DNA from: a virus
IMG/VR virus record: IMGVR_UViG_3300028553_001902
Span: 1-61,925 of that record
DNA: 61,925 nucleotides
Strand: one strand, 5' to 3'
Positions within the stretch are counted from its first letter, which is position 1. Each line of letters opens with the position of its first letter. The translations under genes and the position numbers were made by a program. Positions 862-48,343 of the stretch are shown in pieces. Under the pieces are notes generated by a model. It was not told the origin of the DNA. It saw only the letters and a program-made list of their open reading frames with translations, and ran no database searches.

Positions 862-996
862 ATGGATTTTGAAATGATTAAAAGAAACTATGATAGAAAA
901 CTATGGAACAAAATAATGGTTGGCAAGGCCGTTGAGAAAGGCGTAATTACTGCGTCCCAGTATCAAGAGATAACAGGCGAAGCTTATGTATCTTAG
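862..996 (+). CDS. XkdX family protein
   Basis: A 44-residue protein. It begins MDFEMIKRNYDRKLW and carries VGKAVEKGVITASQYQ followed by an EITGE-like end, the recognisable signature of the XkdX family first named in the Bacillus PBSX element. The ribosome site GGAGG lies at 851-855, seven bases before ATG 862. The function of XkdX is not firmly known. It usually lies between tail-fibre genes and holin/lysin genes, as here. Its 3' end overlaps the lysin start by 11 bases, which suggests translational coupling. Confidence 0.88.
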   Translation: MDFEMIKRNYDRKLWNKIMVGKAVEKGVITASQYQEITGEAYVS

Positions 997-2131
997 ACCA
1001 GAAGATTTAGACCTACTAATCGAGGTAGGTAAAGCACCTTCTCAAATAAAACCAGATGATGCTATATATTATCAGAATTGTCTTTTTGCTGGCTTAGACA
1101 AAGCTAATAAGTATTGGCCTATAGGTCATGTTATAAAGGATGGTAAATATTACCAGAAGTATTATAAAGAACTTCCATGGTCAGCCTTTATCATTCCTTT
1201 TGAAGGTAGACCCTATGTGGGTCAAATTCAGGGGACAGATTATAAGCTAGCATTTCTTTCGACACCTGGGATTAAGAAAGATGGAAAAGTATTTATAAAT
1301 TCAAAGGCAGAAAACACAGCGCCTGATATATTGAGAGCCACAAAACGTTCTGCTATAGGAGTGCTTCCTGATGGAACTATTCGCTTATATACAACACACG
1401 ATAATATAACACTCACAGAGCTAGCTAATAGAATGTCAGATTGTATAGATATTCTGAACCTAGATGGGGGCGGATCTGTCAGCCCAACAAGTGGATGGGA
1501 ACGCCCTACTTCATCAGCACTAATAGTGCGGAAAGGACTACCCATGACAATAAAACATTTTGAAACATATGATAGACTCACATCGCCTTTTGCTGAGCGC
1601 GTTCATCCTATTACAGGGAAAAAGCATTTTCATACAGGAATAGATCTTGTAAAACAACATAAAGGTGAAGTATATGCAACAGCTCCTGGTGACGTGCTTT
1701 TTGCAGCGTTTGCACAAACAGGCACTGGCTTAGGCGGATTTGGCAATACTGTGTGCGTCCTTGACAAGAACAAACATGTTCATATTTATGCTCACTTAGA
1801 TAGTATTGTTGCTCGCCTAGATCAAAAAGTAGATAAGGGTACATTGCTAGGCTATCAGGGCAATACAGGCCAATCTGCTGGGTCCCATCTTCATTATGAA
1901 ATACGGTCGAAGTCAAGTCCTAGTTTTGGCTGGAAATTTCATGTAGACCCTCTTAAATACTTGGACAAATATTGGGCCGAAGTTGAGGCAGAAGAAGCAG
2001 CCAAGAAAAAAGATTGGCGCCAAGATGGGTTAGAATTCTTGCAAAAAAACTACGGTATTTCTGCTGATTGGAAAGCAACAGACCCAGTTGATATGGGAAC
2101 TCTAGGAATCATTTTGAGTAGGAGGAAATAA
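986..2131 (+). CDS. Two-domain lysin: phosphodiester-glycosidase-like domain plus M23 peptidase
   Basis: A 381-residue cell-wall lysin. Residues about 50-185 look like the phosphodiester glycosidase (NAGPA) fold, with the LNLDGGGS motif and Asp160. Residues about 198-320 form a LytM-type M23 metallopeptidase: His216 and Asp220 in HTGID, and the His301-Leu-His303 pair, are the expected zinc and catalytic residues. M23 enzymes cut peptide cross-bridges. The last 40 residues, from KDWRQDGLEFL, resemble a small wall-associated repeat. No signal peptide is visible, consistent with holin-dependent release. The ATG at 986 overlaps XkdX and has only a weak ribosome site. M23 is certain; the role of the N-terminal domain in lysis is inferred. 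Confidence 0.85.
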   Translation: MYLRPEDLDLLIEVGKAPSQIKPDDAIYYQNCLFAGLDKANKYWPIGHVIKDGKYYQKYYKELPWSAFIIPFEGRPYVGQIQGTDYKLAFLSTPGIKKDGKVFINSKAENTAPDILRATKRSAIGVLPDGTIRLYTTHDNITLTELANRMSDCIDILNLDGGGSVSPTSGWERPTSSALIVRKGLPMTIKHFETYDRLTSPFAERVHPITGKKHFHTGIDLVKQHKGEVYATAPGDVLFAAFAQTGTGLGGFGNTVCVLDKNKHVHIYAHLDSIVARLDQKVDKGTLLGYQGNTGQSAGSHLHYEIRSKSSPSFGWKFHVDPLKYLDKYWAEVEAEEAAKKKDWRQDGLEFLQKNYGISADWKATDPVDMGTLGIILSRRK

Positions 2132-28021: not shown

Positions 28022-31000
28022 ATGTCTTACGTCTCTGTGCATAATCATACCCACTTCTCAAATCTTCGCTTACTAGATTGCATCATAAAGCCGAGCGATT
28101 TAATAGATAGAGCACATGAATTGGGACTTTCTGGTCTAGCAATAACAGACCATGAGTCCCTAAGCGCTCATGTAGAAGCTATTCAATACTATAAAAAGAA
28201 ATATAAAGATTCTGAAATGAAACTAATACTTGGAAATGAGATCTATCTTACTGATGATAGAAGTATGGGTGGAAAATATCCTCACTTTCTACTCATGGCT
28301 AAAAATGCTGAGGGCCATCGCGCACTGAGGGAGTTTAGTAGCATAGCTTGGTCTCATTCTTATTATGATAGAGGGCTTGAGCGCGTCCCTGTAACAAAGC
28401 AAGAGTTGTTAGATATAACAAATAAGTACAAAGGAACACTGATTGCCACAACTGCTTGTATTGGTGGCGAACTCTCACAGTATATCTTAAAATTACATGC
28501 AGCAGAAGGAGCGGGAGATGAGCAGCAAACCACTTTCTATAAGCAGCAGATATATTTATTTATTGATTTTTTACAGCAGTGTTTTGGGCAAGACTTATTA
28601 TTAGAAATAGCCCCAAATGATTCGGAAGAACAGAGAATAGTTAATTGTAGAATGAAATCTATTGCCAGTTTTTTCCAAATTCCTCTAATTTTTGCAACGG
28701 ATTCACACTACCTCAATAAAGAAGATAGATACATCCATAAGGCTTTCTTAAATTCGAAGCACGGTGAGCGAGAAGTTGATGACTTTTATTCTACAGCGTA
28801 CATGATGTCAGAAGAAGAAGTGTGGGAATATTTAAAACATGACTTTTCTAAAGAAGAATTTAATGCCATGATTGAAAATTCTAAAACTATATTGCACAAA
28901 GTCGAATTTTACGACTTATTCAATCCTCAAATTATTCCAACGATCAAATTACCACAAATAAACTTAGATATTACATTCCAAAAAGATAAATATATATATC
29001 TAGATAAGATGCTAGATGATGATAATATACAAAATAATGTATGGATTAAAACTTGTTTAAATAAATTAGCAGAAAAACAACTATTTAACGATACTTATTT
29101 AAATAGATTGAATGATGAAGCTAGAGAGTTGTATGAAATATCTGAGAACCTTAGCATCACAATGACTTCATATTACAATACGATGGCCAAAATTATTGAT
29201 ATCGTATGGAACGAAGGCGACAGTCTAGTAGGTGTTGCGCGAGGAAGTGCCACTGGCTTCTTAAGTTGCTATCTGCTAGGCATCACTCAGCTTGATCCTA
29301 TTAAATGGAACTTGCCGCACTGGCGCCATCTCACAAGTACGCGCCCAGAATTCCCAGATATTGACTTTGATACTCAGGCGCTACGTCGAGATAGAATATT
29401 ACAAGCTATCAAGGCTTATTTTGGCGATAAGAACGTGCTAAATATCTGTACATTTGGTACAGAAGGCCCCAAATCAGCCATCCTAACTGCGTGTAGAGGG
29501 CTAGGCATAGACAACGATATTGGTTTATATCTAACAGGCATGATACCTCAAGAGCGTGGCTTTACATGGCCACTGAGCGATTGTTTATATGGTAATGCTG
29601 AAAAGGATAGACGCCCAATAGAACCGCTTAAAATTGAAATTGCGAAGCATGAAGGCCTAGAAGAAATGATATTGAAGATCGAGGGACTTGTGAATAAGCG
29701 TTCTATTCATGCGGCTGGTGTGTATATCTTTAATAATGGTTTTGTAGAGCGTAATGCTCTAATGAAGGCACCCAATGGACAACCTACTACTCAATGGGAT
29801 ATGGATGATAGCGATTACATGGGCTGTTTAAAGTATGATTTGCTTACTATAGAAGCCTTGGATAAACTGAGGGTTGCATTAGACTTGCTAATAGATGACG
29901 GCTTAATCGAGGCTCAGAGCTCTCTAAAAGAGACATACGATAAGTATCTGCACCCAGATGTTTTAGACTATTCGAATCAGATGTGGCAGGCTGCCTCAGA
30001 TGGAGAAGTCATAAGTCTATTTCAGTTTGATACTTTAGTGGGCGGCCAAGCGATCAAAAAAGTTCAGCCACAATCACTTGAGGACGCAGCATCAGCAAAT
30101 AGCTTAATGAGATTGATGCCACTCGAAGATGGCACAGTATTGGTTGATAAATATGTGCAGTTTAAAAATAATATTGAACTTTGGTATCGAGAATTAGATA
30201 GAAATAATATTCGCCCAGACGAAGTTAAACTGCTTGAACCTCACTATCTACCTGTATATGGTGTGCCCAATACTCAAGAAGATATGATGGAATTACTCAT
30301 GAATCCAGAGCTAATTGGATTCTCACTTGAAGAAGCGAACTATGCAAGAAAAATTGTTGGCAAGAAGAAGATGGAAGAAATTCCTAAGTTAAAGAAAATG
30401 ATTTTTGACAAAAGCCCTGTATCACATAGTCTAATAAACTATATTTATATAACTGCAATTCAACCTCAACTTGGGTAGAATGATGCTCAAGTAAAATTTG
30501 TTGAACCTTATCCAAGGGTGTATGAGAAATCATGCTAACGGTGAAACCTAAGTGTGTGAACATATGGCAATACCGTGCCAAGCTCATTTTGAGAAGGTGT
30601 AGAGACTAAACTGGAGAAATCCTAAGAGAAATAGAGATGGATACTATTTCGTAGCGGCAAATATGAATACCTGTGGTCTAAATTTAACCTTTCATATAGT
30701 CCACTTTTTATTAAAAATAAGGAGGAGTTTATATGATTTGGAGAAAATTTAGAAACACAAGATATGAAATTAGTGAGTACGGGGATGTAAAAAATATTCT
30801 TACAGGAAGAATCTTAAAATCTTCTTTTGTACCAAAGGGCTATTTACATATAAGCCTTAGAATTGATTCTAGTAGAAAAACTTTTTTAATACATAGACTT
30901 GTTGCAGAAGTTTTTTTATCAGAATTTTCCGATCAGTATACAGTGGATCATATTGATGAGAATAAAATTAATAATCATTTTTCAAATTTAAGAATGATGA

Positions 31001-32596
31001 AAAATGAAGAAAATATTTCTATTTCTTGGAGAAGTGGTTCTAGGATTGGAACGTGTACAAAAAAAGTTTTAATGATTAATAAAGCCACTGGATTAGTAGA
31101 AAAAGAATTTGATTCTATTTCCGAGGCTAGTAGACAACTTTCTGTAGATAGAAAAGGCTTAATAAAAAAATTAAATAATAAAACATTAAATAGCAAGAAC
31201 CCTGTATACAAATTTTATATTTTCAAACATTCATAAAGATATAGTCCGATCCTTATAGAAATATAAGATAATTGATTCATTCTCAAGAAATCATACCACT
31301 CCATATACAGCTATCGCTCTTCAAGAGCTTAATATATATAATAAATATCCAACATTATATTGGAATACAGCATGTTTGTATGTTGATGCTGGCGCAGGCG
31401 AGGATAAAACAACAGATTATGCTAAAATTGCAACTGCAATAGGTCAGATAAAGTCAAGTGGAATTAATGTGGCTCTACCTGATATCAATCGCTCAAGATT
31501 TAACTTTAGTCCTGATGTTGAAAACGATAGAATATTGTGCGGCCTGAAGGGTTTAGTTAATGTCGGAGATGATATTGTACATGAAATTATTAAGAATAGA
31601 CCCTATACTTCTTTATATGATTTTATGGAGAGAACTTCTGCATCAAAGTCTGTAATGATATCGCTAATAAAATCTGGGGCTTTTGACTTCGTAGAAAAAA
31701 TTCCAAGAGAAAAGATAATGGAAAATTATATATACTCTACTTTACCGCAAAGAAGTCGTATATCTCTGCAAATAATACCTGCAATTATAAATTCAGATAT
31801 TGATAAGACCGAAATAAATGACCTCCTAGCCTTGTTTGAGTTTAATAGATATATGAGAACTCTAAGGAAAAATAATCATTATATACTAGATCAGAGGGCC
31901 TTAGAATACTATTTAGATAGGTTTGATCCTAAATTAATTGAAGATAATGAAGGAATCAAGTGTGCGGTGTGGGATAGAGTGTACGATAAACATATAGAAC
32001 CCCTACGTAAATGGACCTCTGAAAATCAGGAAGAGATTAAAAAAGCTTTGAGTAAAGAAGCATTTGAAGAAGAATGGGCTAAATACGCGTCTGGCACTAT
32101 AGCATCATGGGAAATGGACTCTGTGAGCTTTTACCATTCGTACCATGAGCTTGAAAAAGTTAATACTTCTGAATATGGAATAGTCGATTTTTATAATCTT
32201 CCTGAATATCCAAAAGTAGAAAAGTTTATAGAATTTGGACCTAAGAAAAAAGTCCCCATATTTCAAACTTCAATAATTGCAGGAACTATCTTAGGAAAAG
32301 ATAAGATAAAATCTACAATTTCTATACAAACGATTGATGGGGTTGTGTATGTTAAGTTTAGACCAGAGCAGTTTGCAGAGTATGATAGGCAAATATCCGA
32401 GCGTCAAGAGGATGGAAGCAAGCGAGTTCTCGATCGCTCGTGGTTTAATCGAGGTAAAAAGATATTACTTACTGGATTTCGTCGCGGCTCCGAATTTGTT
32501 CCTAAAAAATACTCGCATACTTCAACTGAGATGTTATATTTAATTGATGAAATTGACACTCAAGGAAACTTAGTTTTAAAGAGGGATAGACTATGA
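28022..32596 (+). CDS. dnaE: DNA polymerase III alpha subunit (DnaE-like), split by a group I intron
   Basis: Spliced product of about 1258 residues: exon 1 is 28022-30476 and exon 2 is 31275-32596. The N-terminal PHP domain starts VHNHTHFSNLRLLD with TDHESLS. The catalytic palm has PDIDFD with Asp446 and Asp448. The late LGYSFSRNHTTPYTA motif is restored only by joining the exons across the intron. It is the replicative C-family polymerase. AGGAGG lies at 28006-28011; ATG 28022 is the in-frame start. No clamp or clamp loader is in the window, so the host's may be used. The gene overlaps the guanylate kinase-like gene by four bases. Confidence 0.93.
30477..31274 (+). ncRNA. Group I intron carrying an HNH endonuclease gene
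   Basis: A 798-base intron. P1 is exact: ACTTGGGT at the exon end pairs with GCTCAAGT at about 30485-30492, with U-G at the splice site after T 30476. The terminal G is 31274. GAGACTA near 30601 can form P7 with TAGTC in either of two similar strings, catatagtccac before the ORF (near 30695) or gatatagtccg after it (near 31240), so the ORF may have inserted beside or duplicated the P7 strand. Joining gives codon TAT and the frame LGYSFSRNH. Confidence 0.9.
30733..31236 (+). CDS. Intron-encoded HNH homing endonuclease
   Basis: A 167-residue free-standing reading frame inside the polymerase intron. Residues 1-45 are a NUMOD4 motif (IWRKFRNTRYEISEYGDV). The HNH core contains IHRLVAEVFL then TVDHIDENKINNHFSNL. 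The C-terminus has a NUMOD1-like DNA-binding repeat (FDSISEASRQLSVDRKGLI). Such enzymes cut intronless polymerase alleles and spread the intron. AGGAGG lies upstream of ATG 30733. Related organisation is known from SPO1-type phage polymerase introns. Confidence 0.92.
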   Translation: MIWRKFRNTRYEISEYGDVKNILTGRILKSSFVPKGYLHISLRIDSSRKTFLIHRLVAEVFLSEFSDQYTVDHIDENKINNHFSNLRMMKNEENISISWRSGSRIGTCTKKVLMINKATGLVEKEFDSISEASRQLSVDRKGLIKKLNNKTLNSKNPVYKFYIFKHS

Positions 32597-34896: not shown

Positions 34897-34906
34897 GCCC
34901 CCTTTA
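34880..34906. terminator. Bidirectional terminator between the convergent gene blocks
   Basis: GGGGGC (34886-34891) pairs with GCCCCC (34897-34902). Plus-strand transcripts meet tttaat; minus-strand transcripts end in aattttttat, the stronger signal. It sits exactly where the replication block and the structural block meet. Confidence 0.75.
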
Positions 34907-37900
34907 ATCATGTGCGTATATTTTTACTGCACTCATCTCCATAGTGCCCTCGTGGCTCAATGGAACAGTGAATGATTGTAAATAATGATTTCCAGATATG
35001 CCTGTATTTAAATCTGTTATGTGTATTTTTTTATTAGGTTCTAATGAATATATAGGAATAGAGCTTACAGATATACTTTCATTAAAGTTGGTGTGAATAT
35101 AGAGTAAATTTTTCATTGTAGAGAATGCATCACTCTTATACTGAAACTCTTCATTGTCTAAATAATTCTCAATTTGAGATTTTAAAATACTAACATATGG
35201 AACTTCAAGAGATTCAAATTCAGATTCAATTCTTAAAGCATCTGCATTGGTCTCAATATAAGCTGTGTATTCAGCAATACTAGTATCCCCTACGCTAAAA
35301 AATAATGTAGTATTATTTGGTATACTAGTTAAAGTTGCTTTAGATATTGTCACACTTAAGGCTTGAGTTCCTCCATAATATCTATCAACAACTGCACTTG
35401 GTCCAGTACCTCCTCCAAATAAGACACTATCAGCAACAACAGCTGTAGCAAGAAGTTGTCTAGCTGCTGAGAGAGCAGTTGCTACAGTTCTTGATAAACT
35501 TGTATCATAATAATCAACGACTGAAGAATCTGCGGCTCCAGTATATCCACCACCAAATAATGCTATTGATGAGATTTGTGAGGCAGCTAAATTATAGCGA
35601 GCAGTAGATAATGTTGTTGGAGTTGTTCTAGTAAGAGAAGAATCATAGGCATCAACTGTTGCTCTTGCGGTTCCATCAGTTCCCCCACCAAATAGTACAT
35701 AATTATTAACTGAGGCTGCGGCTAATTGCTGTCTAGCTAAAGAAAGTGCAGTTGGTGTTGACCTAGTTAAAGAAGTATTGTATGCATCAACTGTGCTTAA
35801 TGCTGAGCCTCCTCCAAATAATGCGTAATTAGCATTACTCGAAGCAGCAAGATAGAGTCTAGCTGCCGAAAGAACTGTTGGTGTTGATTGTGTTAAGCTA
35901 GTATTATAAGCATAAACATAATCACGAGCAACTGCTACTGCACCAGGTGGATATCCTCGACCACCACCAAACAATGCATAACTTCCAACTGAAGTTGCAG
36001 CTAAATCCCAAACTCCATTTGCAAATTGAGTTGGAGAGGTTCTTGTTAGCGATGTATCATATGCATCAACAGCTGTGCCAAGTGAGCTCCCAAATCCACC
36101 TCCAAATAAACCATAATTACCAACTGATGCACCAGCTAATAAATGTCTAGCAGAAGATAAGGCTGTTGGAGTTGTTCTTGTAAATGAAGTATCATAAGCG
36201 TTAACAGTGGAAACAAATGTGGTCGTAAATCCACCACCAAATAATGCATAATTTCCAACAGAAGTTCCAGCAAGTTCATATCTGACGGTACTTAATGAAG
36301 TTAAAGTTGCAGCATTAACATCCGCAGAGGTTTCTACAACATTTGTAACAGTAGTACTGGCTTGTATACCAGTTCCTGTTACAGCCATACCCTTTCTAAT
36401 ATCAATACTAGAGGTTAACATTGTTAATGTTGTGACACCATTGGCAATTAATTTTGAAGTTGCTCTATCTAAATTTACATAATAAGTGCTTGCTGTTACT
36501 ATATCACTAGTAGTAAATCCAATTGTTGTAGAACTTGCTGTATAAATTGACCAAGAACCATTAAGCTTGGTATTAAAAAATGGTGGAATTCCTGATATAG
36601 TTAAAACATCTCCAACATTTACTGTAGTTGGCGAAGTAAAAGTTGCACTAACAGTTCTTCCATTTGTTGGAACTGTAAAGCTACTAAAACTTACTGGCAC
36701 ACTTTCTAAATCTTCATACAAAATAACCTTTACACTTCTACCAGCTGAATCTGTATAAGTTGGTTCCAATGTTCTTGGATATATAATGGTTATATTATCA
36801 TCTCGTATTGATTTAATCCTTCTACCAATTGCATTCACAGAAAATTGAGAAACACTACTATTAGAATCACTAATTATATCAAAGAAATAATTCCAAGTAA
36901 ATGCATCTCCGAGAGGTTTATTAGTATTAAAATCAGTATCTTCTTCTCCTGTATTTTGAGACCGCCAAACTCCAGCAGTTGCACTTGTTTTTTTATAAAT
37001 TCCTGTATTATCTTCTGAATTATACTCGAAATATTTCTTAAGTTCAGCATAATATCTATTTTCTTCAATAGAAGGGTCTGTTTGAGCATTATATTCAGTT
37101 AAATCAATTATATACTGCTGCCAAGGTTGATTATAATCACCCAAGATTGATGTCCATGTACCTCCACTATCTTGTATATAAAATTGACTAGGTACTTCTG
37201 GTATTGTATCTATTACAAGATGATATAAAAGATTGTTTGCACCATAAACATAGAAATCATTTTTTACACCCTTCCAATTTGGTGCGTTGCTATAAGAAGA
37301 AACAATTTCTTTATCAGAAAAATTATAAATATATGGAATAAAATCAAAGTTGGCTAAATACTTATTGCCTCCATCATTCTGAAATAAAGAAATATTACTA
37401 AGATTACTTTCAAGATTTTTTTTAAATTGAAATATAAAGTTACCATCTATGTCAAAAAAATACTCATACTCACCCAATAAATCAGATTTTACTCGTTCAA
37501 GTATAGTATTTACTGTATCAGTACTAGATACTTCAATTTTTGTGTCTTTATTTTTTGGACTCAATACAACTTGTAGTGGTAAGATTGTCCCAGGATCTAT
37601 TGGTGGAGAAAGTGCTGTTCCACTAGTTATTGGCGCAGCTGTACTAATATTAAAGGTTCTTTGTCCATAACTATTAATAGGTGTTGAATATAATGTAACT
37701 GCTGGAGAAATATAAAAAGTAAAATTACCACTACCTAAAATTGGTTTGCTTAATTGAATTCCGTTATCAAGAACTACTGAAACAGTTGAATCTGCAGATA
37801 ACAAACCCTCTCCAAATTGATTTGTAAAAATCTGTACAACTGTCTTACCTATTTCAATACTAGCTGAAGATGCTGCTTGAGTTCCCACATAATAAATCCC

Positions 37901-38575
37901 ATTTTGAGGGTCTGAAGATTGACCATCTCCATAAAAAGTAAAATCTTCTAATGGAACCCTCGTTAGAGATTCTGCATAATAAGGTACATCTAATACTACA
38001 ACTTTCGATTCATCAATTCCCCCAAAATAAGAAACTGAGTCTTTGATAATAGTTTGATATGGTAAATTTTCATTTGTTATTGTATTAACAAAGTCAATAT
38101 CATATCCAAGCTCCCCAGCTATGTCCCCATTCAATAACACCATTTTATCCTGAGCAGAAACTGATACTGAACTATCTTCAATTGAGTGGCTTAATGAAAC
38201 ATCAGTTGGTACAAAAACACCCAAATTAAACCAAATAATTGGCTCAGATAAAATTCGAGTCTCTTCAGTAGTAAGATCTGGAAACATTCCATAATAAGTG
38301 TTATTTTTCAAGCCAATTAAAATTGATATTTTTTTACTAATGGTTATTTCATTTGCTACTTCTGGTAAAAGATAAGTATCTGGATCTAGTACCAGAGTAA
38401 CATTTATAGTTCTACGTATTGGACTATTACCATCAACACTCAAACTCCCAGTACTGACTAATCCCTGAATTTCTTTTATCTTTAATTCATTCCAAGTGAG
38501 TAAATTAATTTTTACATAAAGCTCTCTATCTCTATTTAAAAATAATTCATCTAAGAACTCCCTATTATAAAACAT
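34904..38575 (-). CDS. Large tail-tip/baseplate protein with a kelch-like propeller
   Basis: A 1223-residue virion protein. Residues 1-190 (ELYVKINLLTWNELKIKEI, later SVSAQDKMVLLNGDIAGELG) resemble the N-terminal hub region of phage baseplate/tail-tip proteins. A middle beta-rich region follows. Residues about 760-1075 contain seven kelch-like repeats, each with ALFGGG or a close variant followed by YDTSLTRTTPT-type spacers, predicted to form a beta-propeller. The C-terminal 150 residues return to a tail-tip-like domain. It is the last gene of the structural operon. The propeller may bind a host receptor. Confidence 0.72.
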   Translation of the reverse strand: MFYNREFLDELFLNRDRELYVKINLLTWNELKIKEIQGLVSTGSLSVDGNSPIRRTINVTLVLDPDTYLLPEVANEITISKKISILIGLKNNTYYGMFPDLTTEETRILSEPIIWFNLGVFVPTDVSLSHSIEDSSVSVSAQDKMVLLNGDIAGELGYDIDFVNTITNENLPYQTIIKDSVSYFGGIDESKVVVLDVPYYAESLTRVPLEDFTFYGDGQSSDPQNGIYYVGTQAASSASIEIGKTVVQIFTNQFGEGLLSADSTVSVVLDNGIQLSKPILGSGNFTFYISPAVTLYSTPINSYGQRTFNISTAAPITSGTALSPPIDPGTILPLQVVLSPKNKDTKIEVSSTDTVNTILERVKSDLLGEYEYFFDIDGNFIFQFKKNLESNLSNISLFQNDGGNKYLANFDFIPYIYNFSDKEIVSSYSNAPNWKGVKNDFYVYGANNLLYHLVIDTIPEVPSQFYIQDSGGTWTSILGDYNQPWQQYIIDLTEYNAQTDPSIEENRYYAELKKYFEYNSEDNTGIYKKTSATAGVWRSQNTGEEDTDFNTNKPLGDAFTWNYFFDIISDSNSSVSQFSVNAIGRRIKSIRDDNITIIYPRTLEPTYTDSAGRSVKVILYEDLESVPVSFSSFTVPTNGRTVSATFTSPTTVNVGDVLTISGIPPFFNTKLNGSWSIYTASSTTIGFTTSDIVTASTYYVNLDRATSKLIANGVTTLTMLTSSIDIRKGMAVTGTGIQASTTVTNVVETSADVNAATLTSLSTVRYELAGTSVGNYALFGGGFTTTFVSTVNAYDTSFTRTTPTALSSARHLLAGASVGNYGLFGGGFGSSLGTAVDAYDTSLTRTSPTQFANGVWDLAATSVGSYALFGGGRGYPPGAVAVARDYVYAYNTSLTQSTPTVLSAARLYLAASSNANYALFGGGSALSTVDAYNTSLTRSTPTALSLARQQLAAASVNNYVLFGGGTDGTARATVDAYDSSLTRTTPTTLSTARYNLAASQISSIALFGGGYTGAADSSVVDYYDTSLSRTVATALSAARQLLATAVVADSVLFGGGTGPSAVVDRYYGGTQALSVTISKATLTSIPNNTTLFFSVGDTSIAEYTAYIETNADALRIESEFESLEVPYVSILKSQIENYLDNEEFQYKSDAFSTMKNLLYIHTNFNESISVSSIPIYSLEPNKKIHITDLNTGISGNHYLQSFTVPLSHEGTMEMSAVKIYAHD
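35345..36300 (-). repeat. Kelch-like coding repeats in the tail-tip gene
   Basis: Seven imperfect repeats of roughly 130-150 bases each. On the plus strand they show recurring ccaccaaataatgc-like strings, which encode the ALFGGG turn. They lie in frame within the 1223-residue protein. Confidence 0.85.
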
Positions 38576-38592: not shown

Positions 38593-41046
38593 CTAGAATT
38601 TGCCTGGTATTTTATAACCAATAAAATTGTATTCATAAGTTGCTCCCGAAGATGTATATGTTGTAGATACGCTAACTTGAGCAGCAGAAGGTGTAATTGT
38701 TCCAGAAGTTCCAGTTTTTTGCACAATATAGTGTCTAGTTGTCCCCGAATCAGAAACATAAAAATATTGACTTTCAGGTAGATATGTATCAGCAGACCAT
38801 GGAATAGAAAATCCATCAATATTGCTTAATACATATAAATCAGTAGAATCATATTTCTTTTTTCGCAGCCCATATTTAACTAAACTTTCATACGTCATCT
38901 CACCTATTTCAGTTACAGTGCAAGAGAAATTATAAATTAATCTGCCTAATTCTGCAATAGGCTCAAAAGAAACATCTGTAAGCCTCACCAACATTAATCC
39001 TTCAGGCTCAGACTTAAAGACTTTAGGATTTCCATCAGTCAGCCAATCAATTAACTTCTTTCTAAACTGTCTCTCAACAATATAATTATCTCCACGACTA
39101 ATATATGATTGTTGATTTATATTATTTTGTCCAAAATTTGAAAGTGTCGCATACGATGATGTGCTACCTGTAAAAATAGTAGGTCCATTTAAAAGAAAAT
39201 CTTCGTATCGCTCATTAACGATTCTATTTTTAGCGTCTGATGATATTATATAGTTATCGTTGGAATCTCTAGTTAAATTACTAATCAACTCAGCGTACGT
39301 CAATCCTCTAAAAACTCTAGTAGGGTCTGAAACATGAGTAATAAGAGCAGAAAATTGAAATTGTTTATATCCAATATTAGAATTTCTTATAATAAATGGA
39401 AACTTGCCCCCAATGGTTTCAATAAAAGCATCTTTTCTAACTTTTGAAAGACCAGTCACTTGGCCATTATAGATAAAATTAATTTGAATATCATCTTTTC
39501 CGTAAAAGAAAGAACCAGTAAAATCAGGAATTATTTGAGGTTGTATGCTGGTAGTTGTTGATGCACCCCTAGAAATAATCTCTCCTGAGTTATTTATTGT
39601 AGCACTTTGAAATTTATATTTATATAACATACCAGGCTCAATTAAATAATCATAAAAATATTTTTTTGCAGAAGTTGTTGTGCTCATATTGGCAGTTTCA
39701 AATACAGCAATAGTTTTAAAATTATCGTAGCCTTCATCAAAAGAAGAGCGAAGTAAAACTAAAGCGTTGCTAGTAGTGCCAACATTGCTAAGCTCAAATT
39801 CCATGCGGCCATTCTCTCTGTCATTTGTTGCGATAAAATCAACTGTTAATGTAGCTAGAGTATAGTCAGCAGTTAATTCATATCTTTTTGTATATTCAAA
39901 ACCACTTTCAGTCTTAAAATAAATAGATAGATAATATGTTGTATCATCAGCAAGCGAAATGTTATTAGTCCAAGTTACTGATGTTTGATGCAAATATCTT
40001 TGATACTCAATTAAACCACTACCATCAATCTTAGTTTTAGAATTATCATATAGTATAAATTCATATTGTAGCACAGTCTCTTCTTCGTCAAAAGGATATT
40101 TAAATTCAAATGTAAAAAATTCTGCACTTGCTGTATTTGAGGCAGTATATAAAGCATAGCTATTTGTTGTTCTAGATTGAAAACCAACTATACCTAAGTG
40201 CTCTTCATTTGCTGAATTAAATCCTATTAAATTAGAAATAAATACAGGCTTCATAATTGTTTGGTAGGACCAATCTGATACATATTCTCTAGAAGTTTCA
40301 TTTAAAAAAGTTTGCCCTATATAGAAAGAGACAGTTGAAGTTGTTGTTTGTGTGCTTGCTGCACTTAGAGTTATTGACGTACCACTTATAGAAGCAACAG
40401 TAACACCAGGCAAGATTCCAGGACCTGATACATTGAGACCAGGCAATACACCATTAGCACTAGAAACTGTGATAACAGCACTTCCAGTAGTAACACTTGT
40501 AGCCCCTCTTATTACAACTTGCCACGTGCTAGATGTATATGAGAAACTATTATTAGCAGTTAGATTTATTAGTTTAATCTGTGAGCGATAATATTTATTA
40601 ATTCCAGAATCTTCTACTAAACTAAAATCATTATAAGTTATATTTCTGTATGTTGTTGGACCAGTTCCTGTTACAATTTTAGGAAGATTATCAGAGGGAT
40701 CTATTCTAATATTATTTACAGCTACTGTATTTGCTTGCTGAATAAATAAATGAGCAGGGACTTCGATATAATTTCCCAAGCTGTTACTTTGTTTTGCTGC
40801 AATGAATGTTCCTGTTGAATATTTGCCAACGATAGGGTTCGTTTCAGAATCTAAACTTAAAAATCTAATTCCAATATGGCTATACTCATTTTCTTGATTT
40901 AATAGAGATATATCATAGTAAAATTTAAATTTATTCTCACTTGCAGTCTGATCTGCAAAGGGATCATTGGTATCATCATATAATTTAATTGGTATACATT
41001 CAAATCCATCTATTTTTGATGGAACTGTAGGCAAATAGAGAGTCAT
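38593..41046 (-). CDS. Large tail/baseplate protein with Ig/fibronectin-like regions
   Basis: An 817-residue protein. ATG 41046 is chosen because AAGGAGG lies six bases upstream. It is almost entirely predicted beta structure: an N-terminal domain, an insertion near residues 180-260 rich in Thr/Ser/Gly (VTVASISGTSITLSAAST), fibronectin-like stretches in the centre (YEFILYDNSKTKIDG), and a late IAELGRLIYNFSCTVTEIGEMT segment typical of distal tail proteins. It has a terminator upstream, and its stop lies 17 bases from the start of the tail-tip gene. Role inferred from position. Confidence 0.6.
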   Translation of the reverse strand: MTLYLPTVPSKIDGFECIPIKLYDDTNDPFADQTASENKFKFYYDISLLNQENEYSHIGIRFLSLDSETNPIVGKYSTGTFIAAKQSNSLGNYIEVPAHLFIQQANTVAVNNIRIDPSDNLPKIVTGTGPTTYRNITYNDFSLVEDSGINKYYRSQIKLINLTANNSFSYTSSTWQVVIRGATSVTTGSAVITVSSANGVLPGLNVSGPGILPGVTVASISGTSITLSAASTQTTTSTVSFYIGQTFLNETSREYVSDWSYQTIMKPVFISNLIGFNSANEEHLGIVGFQSRTTNSYALYTASNTASAEFFTFEFKYPFDEEETVLQYEFILYDNSKTKIDGSGLIEYQRYLHQTSVTWTNNISLADDTTYYLSIYFKTESGFEYTKRYELTADYTLATLTVDFIATNDRENGRMEFELSNVGTTSNALVLLRSSFDEGYDNFKTIAVFETANMSTTTSAKKYFYDYLIEPGMLYKYKFQSATINNSGEIISRGASTTTSIQPQIIPDFTGSFFYGKDDIQINFIYNGQVTGLSKVRKDAFIETIGGKFPFIIRNSNIGYKQFQFSALITHVSDPTRVFRGLTYAELISNLTRDSNDNYIISSDAKNRIVNERYEDFLLNGPTIFTGSTSSYATLSNFGQNNINQQSYISRGDNYIVERQFRKKLIDWLTDGNPKVFKSEPEGLMLVRLTDVSFEPIAELGRLIYNFSCTVTEIGEMTYESLVKYGLRKKKYDSTDLYVLSNIDGFSIPWSADTYLPESQYFYVSDSGTTRHYIVQKTGTSGTITPSAAQVSVSTTYTSSGATYEYNFIGYKIPGKF

Positions 41047-41073
41047 TTGCAACCTCCTTGTTCATCTTATTAA

Positions 41074-42309: not shown

Positions 42310-42749
42310 CAATAGTCTCCTCCATGAATAGTAATCTGTAGCCCTGCGGAAGCAGTTGTTCCTATTGTTGCATTTATTTTATAATTTGCTGGTAAATATG
42401 GTATAGGTGGTATTGTTTCTGATGTATTGACCGTTATTGTTACATTATAGTCTGTTAAAGCTGCTATTTCAGAAACCGTACTCGCAGCAACTGTAACTTC
42501 ATGTATTAGAGAATTATTTGTTGCAGTTGCATTTGTACTTCCATTATTTATAAAAAAGCGCACAACAGTAGCTGAATTTGTTCCAAGTGGTCTAATCTTT
42601 ATTTGATCAATCCTAGATCCATCAACTCCAGCAGTAAATATTGTACTAACTGTTGTTCCCGTTCCATCTTTCAATATATTAGAATTTGTTAAAGTCCCCC
42701 AACTCACTTTAGGAGTTAGGGGGAAGATTGGTTGTGTATTTGCTGCCAT
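42309..42749 (-). CDS. Conserved small structural protein
   Basis: A 146-residue beta-rich protein beginning AANTQPIFPLTPKVSWGTL, with DGTGTTVSTIFTAGVDGSRI and VVRFFINNGS. This family recurs in phage fibre regions. GGAGGGG precedes ATG 42749. Its stop overlaps the adhesin start and its start overlaps the fibre stop, so the three are translated together. It may be a fibre-associated or virion-decorating protein. Confidence 0.65.
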   Translation of the reverse strand: MAANTQPIFPLTPKVSWGTLTNSNILKDGTGTTVSTIFTAGVDGSRIDQIKIRPLGTNSATVVRFFINNGSTNATATNNSLIHEVTVAASTVSEIAALTDYNVTITVNTSETIPPIPYLPANYKINATIGTTASAGLQITIHGGDY

Positions 42750-45700
42750 TATAAAGCCCCTCCAAAATTTTTATATGAATATACTATCGAACCAACGTCA
42801 CGATTTGTATAATAACTTCCATGTTGCCCATCTAATAAATCTGCATTTAGATTGATAACACTAGTTGTAGAAGATACTGTAAACGGCGCTATTCCTGACG
42901 CAACTGTTGAAATAAAAGCTGTGGCGCTAACCTGTCCTAAAACTTCTAGTTTTGTACTTGGATTGGTAATGCCACCTATACCAATATTTCCACTAGTAGC
43001 TTTTATAACCATATTCACAGGACTTGCATACATTCCAGTAAAATATAAATCTGCTGTTGAGCCCCCAGAAAAAGCAGCAGCACTTTGAAAATAATTTATA
43101 CCTCCAGCAGTAACAAGTCGTATTATTGAGTTTGCATCTTCTGCTACAATTCCTGCATTTGCAGGAACATAAAGATGTAAAAGTTCAAATGGCGCTTGGG
43201 TTCCAATACCAACATAACCACTAGAATTTATGCGCATGGCCTCAACGCCACCCTCAACAAATCCTATTGTATCAGCTGTTGGAAAATATATTCCAGTATT
43301 AGTATCATTTATTGCAGCGAGAGCAGGAATTGTTGTAGAGCCAGTTCCTACATAAATATTAGCAGAAGCTGTTAAATTATTGACAAAAATATTACTAGAT
43401 GTAATATTTATTGTATTCACAAAACTTGATGTTAAAGAACTTGCACTTATATTTCCAGTTACATTAATTGAAGAAGCTGTAATTCTTGTAGTATTTATTG
43501 AAGTTAAATTAGCTATAGAAGAAGTTAATAAATTTGTACTTATGTTTGAAGCAGTTAAGATTGTAGCATTTATTGTAGAAGAAGTTAAAATATTACTACT
43601 AATATTTGAACTTGTTAAAGTAGTAACTTCAATATTACTTGTTGAAAATCCACCATTTAAATCTCTGGATACTAAGGCGCTATTAACATTGCTACTTGTT
43701 GCATTTGTTCCTATTGTAATAAAATCAATTGTAGCACTACTTGTTAATATTATACCATATCCTGCGTTCAATGTCAAGGTGTCACCAGGGTCATCAGCAA
43801 TTACAGCACTTTGCCCTGAAATAGAAATAATCCCAAAGGCACTGGCGGCCGAACCTCCAGCAGATGCATTAATTGTTAGAGTGTTAGTTGCATTATCAGT
43901 ACTTAATGTTATATTAGTCCCACCTGCAACAGTTAATATAGAATTAGGAGATGCAGCTACAAGATTATTTTGTCCTGATACTGATATAGTGCCAAATGCG
44001 CTTCCGCCTCCACTGCCAGTATTTACACCAATAACGTGACCATAAGTATCAAAAGTAAGTCCATTAACAAATACTCCGCTAGTTGTTGTTACATCTGCAA
44101 CTGTTGAAGTGTCAGCATGTGAAATGGTTATTGAGGCTGTAGCAGTTTGATTCAATGTAAATGAACCTGTACCAGTAAGGCCGCCACCTGAATTTATGTT
44201 AATTGTTACATCTGAAATTGTTGGTTTGTTTGTGATATTAGTATAATCAAGGTAATATGAGCCATGCTGCCCATCAAGTAGGTCTGTATTTAAGTTCGTT
44301 ACTAGAGTTGTTGAAGATACTGTTAATGGTGGTGTGCCAGTTGCAACAGTTGATATAAGTGAAGTTGCACTTATTATTCCAGCAACTTCTAGTGTTGTGC
44401 TAGGTGTTCTAGTGCCAATACCCACTCTATATCCTTCAGGAAAAATTGTATTGCTAAATATACTTACAGTACCTAATGAACCAGCAGTTGTACTACCCAT
44501 TACTATATTTGTTATTGAGCCACTTAGACCCCTAGTACCAATCTGAATAGTCTGCCTCAAACCACTACTGACAGTACCCACTGCTATGCTAACCGTATAT
44601 GAGGCTGTTGAGCGACCTATAACAATTTCTGATGATTGTGTAGGCCCACCAATTAGAATTGAGCCAGTTTCTATACCTGTTCCAATATTTATATTAGAAG
44701 TCTTTACAGCAGTTCCTATATTTGCAGTACTACCAGCTGCCCCATTTAATGATAAGGCCGCATTTGCAGTTAGTGTACTATTAAATGTTGAGGCTCCTTC
44801 AGTAGTTATTCCATTGTAAACAGAAAGCGTAGAATTCATTCTTACAGCATCATAAGCAAAAAAGTTTCCTCGAACATTTAAATTTCCGTCTACTGCAAAA
44901 TTACCTACATTAATTATAGAGCGAGCATTATTGGCATATTGATAAACTCTGGTATTACCAGTACCAACTACATATGTATAACTAGCTGTTGAATTTAAAT
45001 TTGTATACATGCCAAGAGGATTACTTTCTTCAAAAAGTACTGGAAAAGCACTTTTAACAACAGAGCTAGTTATTGTAAAGGGAACAGAAAGTTCAAATTG
45101 AAATATAGAATCAAGACTATTATCTAAAATAAACATTCTAGTTCCATCAGAATTAAAATTTATTGCCTGTGGATTATTAGAAGGAGATAGTGATCTTGAG
45201 ACTGAAGCATAAACAGCTGTTGAAGAGCTCCATGCAGTTCCTAGTGAATACTCATGAACCCTATCATTTGTTGTTCCAACCATAAACATTTTAGTTCCAT
45301 CATTATTAAACGCCAAGCCAGCTGCTCCTGTATCTTGACTGACAACTGAAAATGAAGTAGAAAAAGTCATGCTGCCAGGTGACACATTCCAAGGTGTCGT
45401 CAATCTAAATTCTCTAACAACATCTGAAGTTCCACCTAATACATAAACTCTTGTTCCATCATCTTTGAAAAATAAATCATTTGGACTACTATCGCCAATA
45501 TTAAATGAGGTTGTATAGAGAGCAGCAGTACTAACTATCCAGGGTGTAGATAAACTATATTGAGCTATACCATCTCCAGAACTTCTTCCAGTTATAAACA
45601 TATATTGACCTTCAGGACTAAAAAAGACTCCTTGTGGACTAGGCTCTTGACCTGATACTGAAAAAGATATTCCAGAATAAGAAAGTCCTGTAACGGATAC

Positions 45701-48307
45701 ATTTTTAGTTATTATATCATTTGCATTTTGAGTCCTTATAATTATAGAATCAAAGCTTGCAGTACTACTTGTTAATGTTATAATACTTGCACTACTTGCT
45801 GTCAATGTATTTACACTTATATTTGTTGCAGTTAAGGTTGTTATATTTAGTTGACTTGCTGTTAGAATATCTACACTAATATTACTAGATGTTAAATTTA
45901 TTGTATTAATAATACTAGCTGTTAAAATATTTGTACTAATATTGGAACTAGTTAAAGTCGTTATATTAGCAAAGCTAGCAGTTAAAGTATCTGTACTTAT
46001 ATTTGATGCTGAAAGAGTTGGAATATTTAATTGACTCGCAGTTAATATATTAACACTTATATTTGAAGCTGTTAAAGTATCAACATTAATAAAACTAGAT
46101 GTAATTGAACTAGCACTAATATTTCCAGTTACATTTAAAGAAGAAGCAGTAATTCTAGTTGTATTAATTGAAGTTAAATTTGCCACACTCGAAGTTAAAA
46201 CGTTTGTGCTAATATTTGAAGCTGTTAAATTAGCAATATTTGCAAAACTAGCAGTCAATATATTAGTACTTATATTAGAAGAAGTTAAAGTCGTAATATT
46301 TCCAAAACTAGCTGTTAAAATGTTTGTACTAAAATTAGAAGTTGAGAAATTAGATACATTTAAATTTGTTGCAGTTAAATTTGAAACAGTTATATTTGTT
46401 GCATTTATAAAACTAGCAGTTAAAATATTTGAGCTTACATTTGAAGCTGTTATAATTGAACTATTTATAAAACTGGATGTTATGGAACTTACACTAATAT
46501 TTCCTGTAATATTCATCGAAGAAGCAGTAATTCTAGTTGTATTAATTGAAGTTAAATTTGCAACGCTTGCCGTTAGAATATTTCCACTAATATTTGAAGC
46601 AGTCAAAGTGGTCAGATTTAATGAGCTTGCAGTTAATACATTTGTACTAATATTTGAAGCAGTTAAATTAGTAATATTTGCAGAGCTAGCTGTTAAAATA
46701 TTCCCACTTATATTTGATGCAGTTAAAGTAGTTAAATTTAAAGAACTAGCAGTTAATACATTTGTACTAATATTTGTTGAAGTTAAATTACTTGTAAAAA
46801 TTGAGCTTGCACTTATATTTCCAGTTACAGTAAGATTTGAGCTAAATGTAACATTACCTATCGCAGTCAGATTTCTTGCACTGATAAGTGTTGTAGATTG
46901 TAATTGAGAAGTAGTTATACTTGTTGCATTTATTACAGTTGATGTTAAGCTTGCGGCTGAAACATTATTAAAATTAGATAAACTAGCTGTCAAAACATTT
47001 GCACTAATATTAGTAGCTGTCAAATTTGCTATACTAAAAGAACTAGCTGTTAAAACATTTGCACTTATATTTGAGGCAGTTATTATTGAACTATTTATAA
47101 AGCTAGATGTAATAGAACTTGCACTAATATTTCCAGTTACGTTCAAAGATGATGCTGTTATTCTTGTAGTATTTATTGAAGTTAAATTAGCTACACTAGC
47201 TGTTAATGAATCCACACTTATATTAGAACTTGTTATTAAACTAGCACTTAAAGAGCTGACACTTATGTTTCCTGTAACATTTATAGAAGATGCCGTAATT
47301 CTAGTAGTATTAATGTTTGTTAAATTAGCTATAGAAGAAGTTAAAATATTTGAACTTATATTAGAACTAGTTAAAGTTGTAGCATTTATAAAACTAGATG
47401 TAATAGAGCTAGCACTTATGTTTCCTGTCACATTTAGAGAAGAAGCAGTAATACGAGTAGTATTTATTGAAGTTATATTTGCCACACTTGAAGTTAAAAT
47501 ATTTGCACTTATATTTGAAGCTGTTAAATTGGTAACATTTGCTGTACTAGCTGTTAAAATATTTCCACTTATATTGCTTGCTGTAAAAGTTGTTACATTT
47601 AATGAGGCAGCTGTAAAAGAATTGGCGCTAATATTAGTGGCTGTAATTGTGCTTGCCGTCACGTGACTTACAGAAAATCCACCACTTGCATCGCGCGATA
47701 CAATAGTATTGGCAACATTAGAGCTTGTTGCATTACTAGTTACAGTAAAACTGGAGTTTCCACTTTGATTAGCAGTAAATGTGGCCGAACCCCCAAGCCC
47801 CACTCCAGATGTAGCTAAAGTTAATGTGCCATCGCCAGGTGTTGCACCAGAAGCTGCAATTGTAAGAGTATCTGTAGTTGCATTTGTCGTAAGTGTGATT
47901 CCGCTACCTGCAGTAATAGTCAGTATATCAGAAGCTACTTCAGCAACAATTGCGCTTTGTCCTGAGACAGAAATTGTACCAAAAGCAAAAGAACCTCCGC
48001 CGCTCCCAGTGTTTATAGCCTCTGCTATTTTTGCAGAGCGCGATATTAAAATCTTTTTATTAGAAAAATTATTGTCAGGTACAAGCATATAAACTTCTTC
48101 GCCCACATTAAAAGAATCATTTTTTAATGAATAGGCATCATATTCCACACCTTGATAAGATACTCTATATAAATTTTTAGTCTCATCATCGCGCGAAACA
48201 ATTTGTACAATTACAGATCTATCCAACATTAGTTGAGCTATTTTTCTATCTGTAATTAAATGTATAGAAGTAAAAATCTCTTCTAATATTGCATCATAAC
48301 TGTTCAT
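42749..48307 (-). CDS. Giant repeat-rich tail fibre protein
   Basis: A 1852-residue protein; ATG 48307 is preferred over GTG 48319. Residues 1-90 form an attachment domain (SYDAILEEIFTSIHLI, VGEEVYMLVPDNN). Residues about 215-840 are imperfect repeats of roughly 18-20 residues built on LTASNISANILTAS, with the longer unit SINTTRITASSLNVTGNIS occurring five times there and again near residue 1600. About 870-1100 is a propeller-like set of DGTKMFMVG blades. Later parts contain duplicated LLDGQHGSYY segments. The repeat rod is almost free of charged residues. It is probably a trimeric beta-helical fibre. Confidence 0.8.
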   Translation of the reverse strand: MNSYDAILEEIFTSIHLITDRKIAQLMLDRSVIVQIVSRDDETKNLYRVSYQGVEYDAYSLKNDSFNVGEEVYMLVPDNNFSNKKILISRSAKIAEAINTGSGGGSFAFGTISVSGQSAIVAEVASDILTITAGSGITLTTNATTDTLTIAASGATPGDGTLTLATSGVGLGGSATFTANQSGNSSFTVTSNATSSNVANTIVSRDASGGFSVSHVTASTITATNISANSFTAASLNVTTFTASNISGNILTASTANVTNLTASNISANILTSSVANITSINTTRITASSLNVTGNISASSITSSFINATTLTSSNISSNILTSSIANLTNINTTRITASSINVTGNISVSSLSASLITSSNISVDSLTASVANLTSINTTRITASSLNVTGNISASSITSSFINSSIITASNISANVLTASSFSIANLTATNISANVLTASLSNFNNVSAASLTSTVINATSITTSQLQSTTLISARNLTAIGNVTFSSNLTVTGNISASSIFTSNLTSTNISTNVLTASSLNLTTLTASNISGNILTASSANITNLTASNISTNVLTASSLNLTTLTASNISGNILTASVANLTSINTTRITASSMNITGNISVSSITSSFINSSIITASNVSSNILTASFINATNITVSNLTATNLNVSNFSTSNFSTNILTASFGNITTLTSSNISTNILTASFANIANLTASNISTNVLTSSVANLTSINTTRITASSLNVTGNISASSITSSFINVDTLTASNISVNILTASQLNIPTLSASNISTDTLTASFANITTLTSSNISTNILTASIINTINLTSSNISVDILTASQLNITTLTATNISVNTLTASSASIITLTSSTASFDSIIIRTQNANDIITKNVSVTGLSYSGISFSVSGQEPSPQGVFFSPEGQYMFITGRSSGDGIAQYSLSTPWIVSTAALYTTSFNIGDSSPNDLFFKDDGTRVYVLGGTSDVVREFRLTTPWNVSPGSMTFSTSFSVVSQDTGAAGLAFNNDGTKMFMVGTTNDRVHEYSLGTAWSSSTAVYASVSRSLSPSNNPQAINFNSDGTRMFILDNSLDSIFQFELSVPFTITSSVVKSAFPVLFEESNPLGMYTNLNSTASYTYVVGTGNTRVYQYANNARSIINVGNFAVDGNLNVRGNFFAYDAVRMNSTLSVYNGITTEGASTFNSTLTANAALSLNGAAGSTANIGTAVKTSNINIGTGIETGSILIGGPTQSSEIVIGRSTASYTVSIAVGTVSSGLRQTIQIGTRGLSGSITNIVMGSTTAGSLGTVSIFSNTIFPEGYRVGIGTRTPSTTLEVAGIISATSLISTVATGTPPLTVSSTTLVTNLNTDLLDGQHGSYYLDYTNITNKPTISDVTININSGGGLTGTGSFTLNQTATASITISHADTSTVADVTTTSGVFVNGLTFDTYGHVIGVNTGSGGGSAFGTISVSGQNNLVAASPNSILTVAGGTNITLSTDNATNTLTINASAGGSAASAFGIISISGQSAVIADDPGDTLTLNAGYGIILTSSATIDFITIGTNATSSNVNSALVSRDLNGGFSTSNIEVTTLTSSNISSNILTSSTINATILTASNISTNLLTSSIANLTSINTTRITASSINVTGNISASSLTSSFVNTINITSSNIFVNNLTASANIYVGTGSTTIPALAAINDTNTGIYFPTADTIGFVEGGVEAMRINSSGYVGIGTQAPFELLHLYVPANAGIVAEDANSIIRLVTAGGINYFQSAAAFSGGSTADLYFTGMYASPVNMVIKATSGNIGIGGITNPSTKLEVLGQVSATAFISTVASGIAPFTVSSTTSVINLNADLLDGQHGSYYTNRDVGSIVYSYKNFGGAL
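45770..47650 (-). repeat. Tandem fibre-coding repeats
   Basis: About 1.9 kb of imperfect in-frame repeats of some 54-60 bases, plus a copy block near 43380-43640. Each unit encodes variants of TASNISxNILTAS. The repeats also create long open frames on the opposite strand. Confidence 0.85.
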
Positions 48308-48343
48308 AATCGACCTCACTTCCTTATTATCCCTATTTATTAT

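Follow-up and report, generated by a model that had tools for sequence, protein, structure and literature searches.

In siphophages of Gram-positive bacteria, the "evolved" Dit and Tal proteins carry modules inserted in conserved baseplate cores (PMC7291167), and an evolved Dit has been shown to aid adsorption (PMC10688798). The protein described here, the putative baseplate hub P0001, is comparable: a conserved baseplate core (that of Tal is gp27-like) would likewise hold a host-binding module absent in relatives. The modules described for evolved Dits and Tals are, however, small carbohydrate-binding modules in siphophages, whereas P0001 holds a predicted seven-bladed kelch propeller on long linkers and comes from the hub family found in Enterococcus-type phages, which are larger (∼140 kb). 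As in an evolved Tal, the insert lies in a structural domain and is absent from close relatives; because the predicted module has a kelch fold and not a described CBM fold, and its binding to the host is putative, P0001 is termed here a counterpart of the evolved Tals, not a member of the group.

Propellers, too, have precedents in phage tails. The receptor-binding protein (RBP) of phage phi11 contains a five-bladed propeller and gp131C of phiKZ a seven-bladed one (PMC4901313), each in a (putative) receptor-binding tail protein. These are separate peripheral proteins, whereas the propeller of P0001 is spliced into the central hub; among the Foldseek matches listed for the latter, all are kelch domains and neither phi11 RBP nor phiKZ gp131C appears. 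Kelch propellers proper occur in the jumbo phage proteins CBB_550, CBB_552 and CBB_554 (PMC5259590), of which CBB_552 was found in the virion, but these are separate genes and hub insertion was not described. The repeat family of P0001 (NYALFGGG...VDAYDTSLTRTTPTALS.AR) is shared with phrog_19111 and with standalone proteins of ∼390 aa (L088, L092, L093, L105, L137 and others); unlike P0001, these are separate genes. Human KLHL proteins, Keap1 and the designed SAKe proteins agree with it in blade topology and in the GG, Y-D and R positions that are conserved, but have six blades, no phage context and only 16–23% identity to P0001 over the structural alignment. Lastly, the T5 hub BHPpb3 is of the same hub fold class and has insertions as P0001 does, although in T5 the insertion carries a luminal plug and there is no propeller. 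In summary, phage tails are known to contain propellers and, separately, spliced-in binding domains, and a kelch propeller in the central hub seems undescribed in the open-access papers.

The Hub Gene and Its Surroundings

The window, i.e., the whole 61,925-nucleotide stretch of viral DNA that was analyzed, contains a real open reading frame for P0001 on the minus strand, downstream of the tape measure gene and in the same tail operon. The main features are the following:

34904..38575, minus strand: whole hub protein gene (P0001), 1223 aa counted from the ATG, stop codon included
36710..38575, minus strand: hub part 1, predicted gp27/gp44-like baseplate hub, residues 1–622; homology to 80 loci, 76 aligned
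34907..35248, minus strand: hub part 2, residues 1110–1223
38593..41052, minus strand: upstream tail-tip protein, 819 aa; gene order common to L005, L007 and Enterococcus phage H1
48385..54345, minus strand: tape measure protein, same tail operon; TIGR01760 E 2e-31, phrog_4211

The gene order shared with L005, L007 and phage H1 runs from the 819-aa protein through the hub, a RuvC-like protein and a dUTPase to DNA polymerase III alpha. The flanks of P0001 match phrog_32343 and phrog_1887, "tail protein". The 80 loci came from a scan for which P0001 was aligned with Enterococcus phage H1 gp43, phage phAss-1 and MT835469; the later alignment comprised 76 proteins.

What fold do these proteins adopt? 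The relative L005 (58% identity to P0001), folded from a 42-row alignment, gave a model with a mean pLDDT of 68.8 and a pTM of 0.65. In Foldseek, baseplate hubs lead its PDB matches, namely the MuSo2 tail protein, Mu gp44, T4 gp27, T5 pb3 and VgrG-like spikes; those to 1wru, 3cdd, 3d37 and 1k28_D have E values of 3e-7 to 7e-6 with large rmsd. By prediction for this close relative, the core of P0001 has a gp27/gp44-like hub fold. Hub part 2 consists of a helix and a strand that complete an interrupted alpha/beta subdomain, followed by the C-terminal hub domain, which was modeled with a pLDDT of ∼88 (AlphaFold2, residues 600–1223). P0001 is probably a baseplate hub of the gp27/gp44-like kind, which makes up the structural part of a Tal, and its tailed phage is a relative of the Enterococcus phages H1 and EF1. 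By analogy with its family, the hub would form a trimer at the tail tip. A host scan of genomes returned a single weak match, to an uncultured Brachyspira bin.

Two further observations concern these genes. The 819-aa protein looks like a fusion of two L005 proteins: its residues 3–421 match the N half of a 758-aa protein (38%) and residues 429–819 the C half of a 730-aa protein (57%), and in L005 a separate 340-aa gene sits between the two. In addition, TAG must be read as Q to keep the hub gene open in L007, L003 and many other loci, which is not the case in the window.

A Predicted Kelch Propeller within the Hub

The features of the repeat region are listed below:

35372..36325, minus strand: predicted seven-bladed kelch propeller, residues 751–1068; AlphaFold2 pLDDT mostly 94–98, Foldseek E 1e-20
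36230..36244, minus strand: LFGGG motif, blade 1
36095..36109, minus strand: LFGGG motif, blade 2
35960..35974, minus strand: LFGGG motif, blade 3
35807..35821, minus strand: LFGGG motif, blade 4
35681..35695, minus strand: LFGGG motif, blade 5
35546..35560, minus strand: LFGGG motif, blade 6
35408..35422, minus strand: LFGGG motif, blade 7

An earlier note on this DNA had reported seven ALFGGG-type repeats, and they are indeed there: LFGGG occurs exactly seven times within residues 778–1056 (at 778, 823, 868, 919, 961, 1006 and 1052), with spacings of 45, 45, 51, 42, 45 and 46 residues, and was seen in 0 of 2000 shuffles of the repeat segment. FGGG is present in all seven repeats, Y(D/N) in six and R in six. 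Sequence searches link the repeats to kelch domains of known structure (KLHL17, E 4e-9; SAKe6BE-3HH, E 6e-12) and to the phage family phrog_19111 (E 5e-57). Pfam gave zero matches at E ≤ 1 for the whole of P0001, and Kelch_3 was reached only at E 0.04 in the relative L093; the kelch assignment relies on structure and on the PDB sequence matches rather than on Pfam.

AlphaFold2 was given residues 600–1223 and an alignment in which 21 rows were hub proteins and 20 were kelch sequences taken from other viral contigs. The pLDDT is mostly 94–98 over residues ∼751–1066, with the lowest blocks at 85–88, and falls below 50 over most of 600–749 and 1072–1136; these linkers leave the orientation of the propeller unfixed in the model. 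The top PDB matches of the propeller in Foldseek are SAKe6BE-L2 (E 1.3e-20), NS1-BP, KLHL3, KLHL17 and Keap1. According to these models, residues ∼751–1068 are a kelch propeller. How is the ring closed? Predicted strands 1–3 recur seven times, each repeat region also has short fourth strands, and ahead of blade 1 lies a single additional strand; these counts fit seven blades that would be closed by the N-terminal strand. The propeller contains zero Lys, zero Cys, one His and one Glu.

The Insertion Site and Other Inserts of the Hub Family

Three features define the insert:

35249..36709, minus strand: inserted segment, residues 623–1109; column occupancy mostly 0.01–0.05 among 76 proteins
36326..36709, minus strand: N-terminal linker with small beta-rich segments, residues 623–750; pLDDT mostly below 50
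35249..35371, minus strand: C-terminal linker of the insert, residues 1069–1109; low pLDDT

In the alignment of 76 hub proteins, most columns of residues 1–600 are well occupied (with variable stretches around 210–315 and 520–540), as are those from ∼1120 to the end, and occupancy is low, as listed, between residues 621 and 1100. A few insert columns reach 0.27, which reflects scattered alignment of the inserts of other relatives; residues ∼623–1109 are private to P0001 in this set. The borders are the strand VKVILYED (615–622) and the helix NADALRIE (1110–1117), and L005 and L006 (58% identity) have 13 residues at this position. Together with the predicted structure, this alignment upholds the proposal of the earlier note that a kelch-like propeller is inserted between two tail-tip parts, which are hub parts. 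A hub with such an insert was found in one contig only, and no kelch propeller of this kind was found in the records (some of them fragments) of L005–L007, phages H1 and phAss-1, and MT835469.

Other relatives have filled the same subdomain differently. L007 has ∼80 residues (∼67 extra, a small second insert) in the very same loop as the P0001 cassette and, upstream of the strand, a segment of ∼250 residues with an M23 peptidase (Pfam E 1.5e-15), while in phage H1 an unrelated stretch of ∼200 residues follows the second strand of this alpha/beta subdomain. The view that these inserts all occupy exactly the same loop was rejected, given the upstream place of the M23 segment and that of the H1 insert past the second strand; what the M23 peptidase and small domain of L007 and the unrelated domain of H1 do indicate is that the loops of this subdomain accept accessory modules. 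Large inserts also occur elsewhere in the hub, around residues 200–325 in L049 (822 aa) and around residues 460–545 in L016 (977 aa) and L077 (880 aa). The very large hub inserts of L016, L049, L076 and L077 (427–977 aa between anchors) have no Pfam match inside. As a side observation, the product of 986–2131 (plus strand) in the window combines a NAGPA-like domain with an M23 peptidase part that is 41% identical to the one inserted in the L007 hub.

Two ideas on the origin of the cassette were tried and dropped. Residues 697–748 of the N-terminal linker are weakly similar to residues 176–222 of the 819-aa neighbor (11 of 1000 shuffles were as good), as if the propeller were nested inside a small beta domain that this neighbor has as well, but the right piece gave 411 of 1000 and the nesting is not claimed. 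Base composition does not point to a foreign origin: the GC content of the kelch part is higher (0.40 vs 0.30), but GC3 is alike (0.12 vs 0.15), so that the difference comes from Gly/Ala content and there is no sign of recent transfer.

Kelch Relatives and Loop Variation

A scan with NYALFGGG found 58 viral stretches. Many contain complete kelch open reading frames of ∼390 aa, mostly as separate genes, and a simple motif count gave seven blades in 20 of the 39 counted that are at least 340 aa long. Several of these genes adjoin tape measure, Dit, tail-fiber or possible hub genes in the viral contigs checked, and a tail gene neighborhood is the usual place of receptor-binding genes. Searches of viral contigs with unaligned P0001 and with the kelch segment gave zero matches, as did kelch tblastn in phage records, in the latter case possibly owing to the low-complexity filter.

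Two places stand out as most variable when ∼300 blades are compared, the BC loop that follows GGG (3.1–3.6 bits, lengths from 0 to over 20) and the x positions of the DA loop, LS-xx-R-xx (2.5–3.7 bits), whereas strand 2 varies little (0.1–0.9 bits); the CD loop is nearly constant in P0001. The BC and DA loops share one face of the propeller, and in KLHL20 it is these loops that make up the substrate site (PMC6720452). It had been suggested that variable TP/TS spacers mark a binding face under diversifying selection. The TP/TS stretches (R-T/S-T-P-T-x-L-S) prove instead to be among the conserved parts of the repeats, and it is the BC loops and some DA-loop positions that vary. Diversifying selection is not supported either: blade variation within one protein is a different matter from selection acting among phages, the relatives yielded no orthologous propeller for comparison, and synonymous codons are near saturation (identical-codon fraction among the P0001 repeats 0.54 vs 0.44 expected).

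Two other repeat proteins deserve mention. In the standalone kelch gene L137:2813-3976 the seven repeats are nearly identical (94% in protein, 88% identical codons), a sign of recent repeat homogenization or expansion. In the window, 42749–48319 (minus strand) encodes an 1856-aa tail protein with S/T-rich repeats, which have 60-base periods in the DNA, and, from about residue 880, with another kind of propeller-like repeat (SPNDLFFKDDGTRVYVLGGTSDVVREFRLTTPW), present about five times; the phage may carry two unlike propellers, this one and the kelch of P0001.

What Does the Propeller Do?

The most probable answer is that P0001 is a hub counterpart of the evolved Tals and that the kelch propeller is its tethered host-binding module. 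One loop of the small alpha/beta subdomain would have received a cassette of ∼487 residues: a flexible linker, a kelch propeller of seven blades whose ring is completed by the N-terminal strand of the propeller itself, and a second flexible linker. Known relatives of the hub fold form trimers, and the tail tip would accordingly carry three such propellers. By topology, the two tethers would exit at the AB/CD-loop face, one at the start of strand 4 and the other at the end of strand 3, which would turn the variable BC/DA face away from the virion. This exposed face could then bind a ligand of the host surface (glycan, teichoic acid or protein) and help adsorption. Attachment to the bacterial host surface is the most likely role of the propeller, as the earlier note had surmised in calling it a receptor-binding device, and relatives carry other inserts in the same subdomain.

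Could the propeller serve the tail rather than meet the host? It might be a structural or assembly part that docks another tail protein, the 1856-aa fiber or the 819-aa protein, with the partner contacting the host. The kelch domains of BTB-Kelch proteins do bind protein peptides (PMC6720452), and the 1856-aa fiber-like protein, with its second propeller-like region, could be the real receptor-binding protein. Yet L005 and L006 keep the neighboring tail-tip genes without such a propeller anywhere in their (partial) records, and in other contigs members of the propeller family are genes of their own, which makes docking rather unlikely. A place inside the hub cone, as a plug or gate, would resemble the role of part of the T5 pb3 insertion: T5 pb3, to which this hub has a structural match, closes the tube with a plug that belongs to an enlarged hub domain (PMC10038345). 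Here, however, three propellers of 318 residues each are large for the open channel of ∼40 Å reported for T5, relatives without any insert must close the tube by other means, long linkers of low model confidence are what an outer tether would call for, and L007 has an M23 peptidase in the same subdomain. A plug is very improbable on these grounds. The structure prediction that the earlier note had proposed as a check supports the kelch propeller itself, and folding within the tube lumen, which had been named as its counterpossibility, is unlikely.

An enzyme, e.g., a depolymerase acting on capsule or wall polysaccharide, is the remaining candidate: phage endosialidases contain propeller folds (PMC4901313), and wall-degrading domains are frequent in hub and Tal proteins, L007 being an example. 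The propeller of P0001, with no Lys or Cys and a single His and Glu, nevertheless offers no obvious catalytic site; its other acidic residues are Asp, many within the structural YD motif, and its closest structures are binding kelch domains. Catalysis is hardly to be expected.

With host binding as the preferred role, P0001 broadens the concept of the evolved Tal: where small carbohydrate-binding modules had been described, the central hub here holds an entire propeller of seven blades. It also illustrates how one small hub subdomain takes up different accessory domains in different relatives, and a propeller, with its adjacent ends and loops of variable length, would be a good natural scaffold for host recognition. 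More tentatively, the alpha/beta subdomain might be a docking point for swapping whole modules (kelch adhesin, M23 wall peptidase, others), by which the central hub, and not the side fibers only, would be re-armed for new hosts.

A Split Polymerase Gene in the Window

A last observation concerns the DNA polymerase III alpha gene at 28022–32596 (plus strand). It is split into parts of 818 and 406 aa around an open reading frame for an HNH/NUMOD4 endonuclease (30733–31236), while L005 has one intact gene of 1258 aa. Rfam at the gathering threshold gave no match; the arrangement of the reading frames nonetheless suggests an intron-like insertion.
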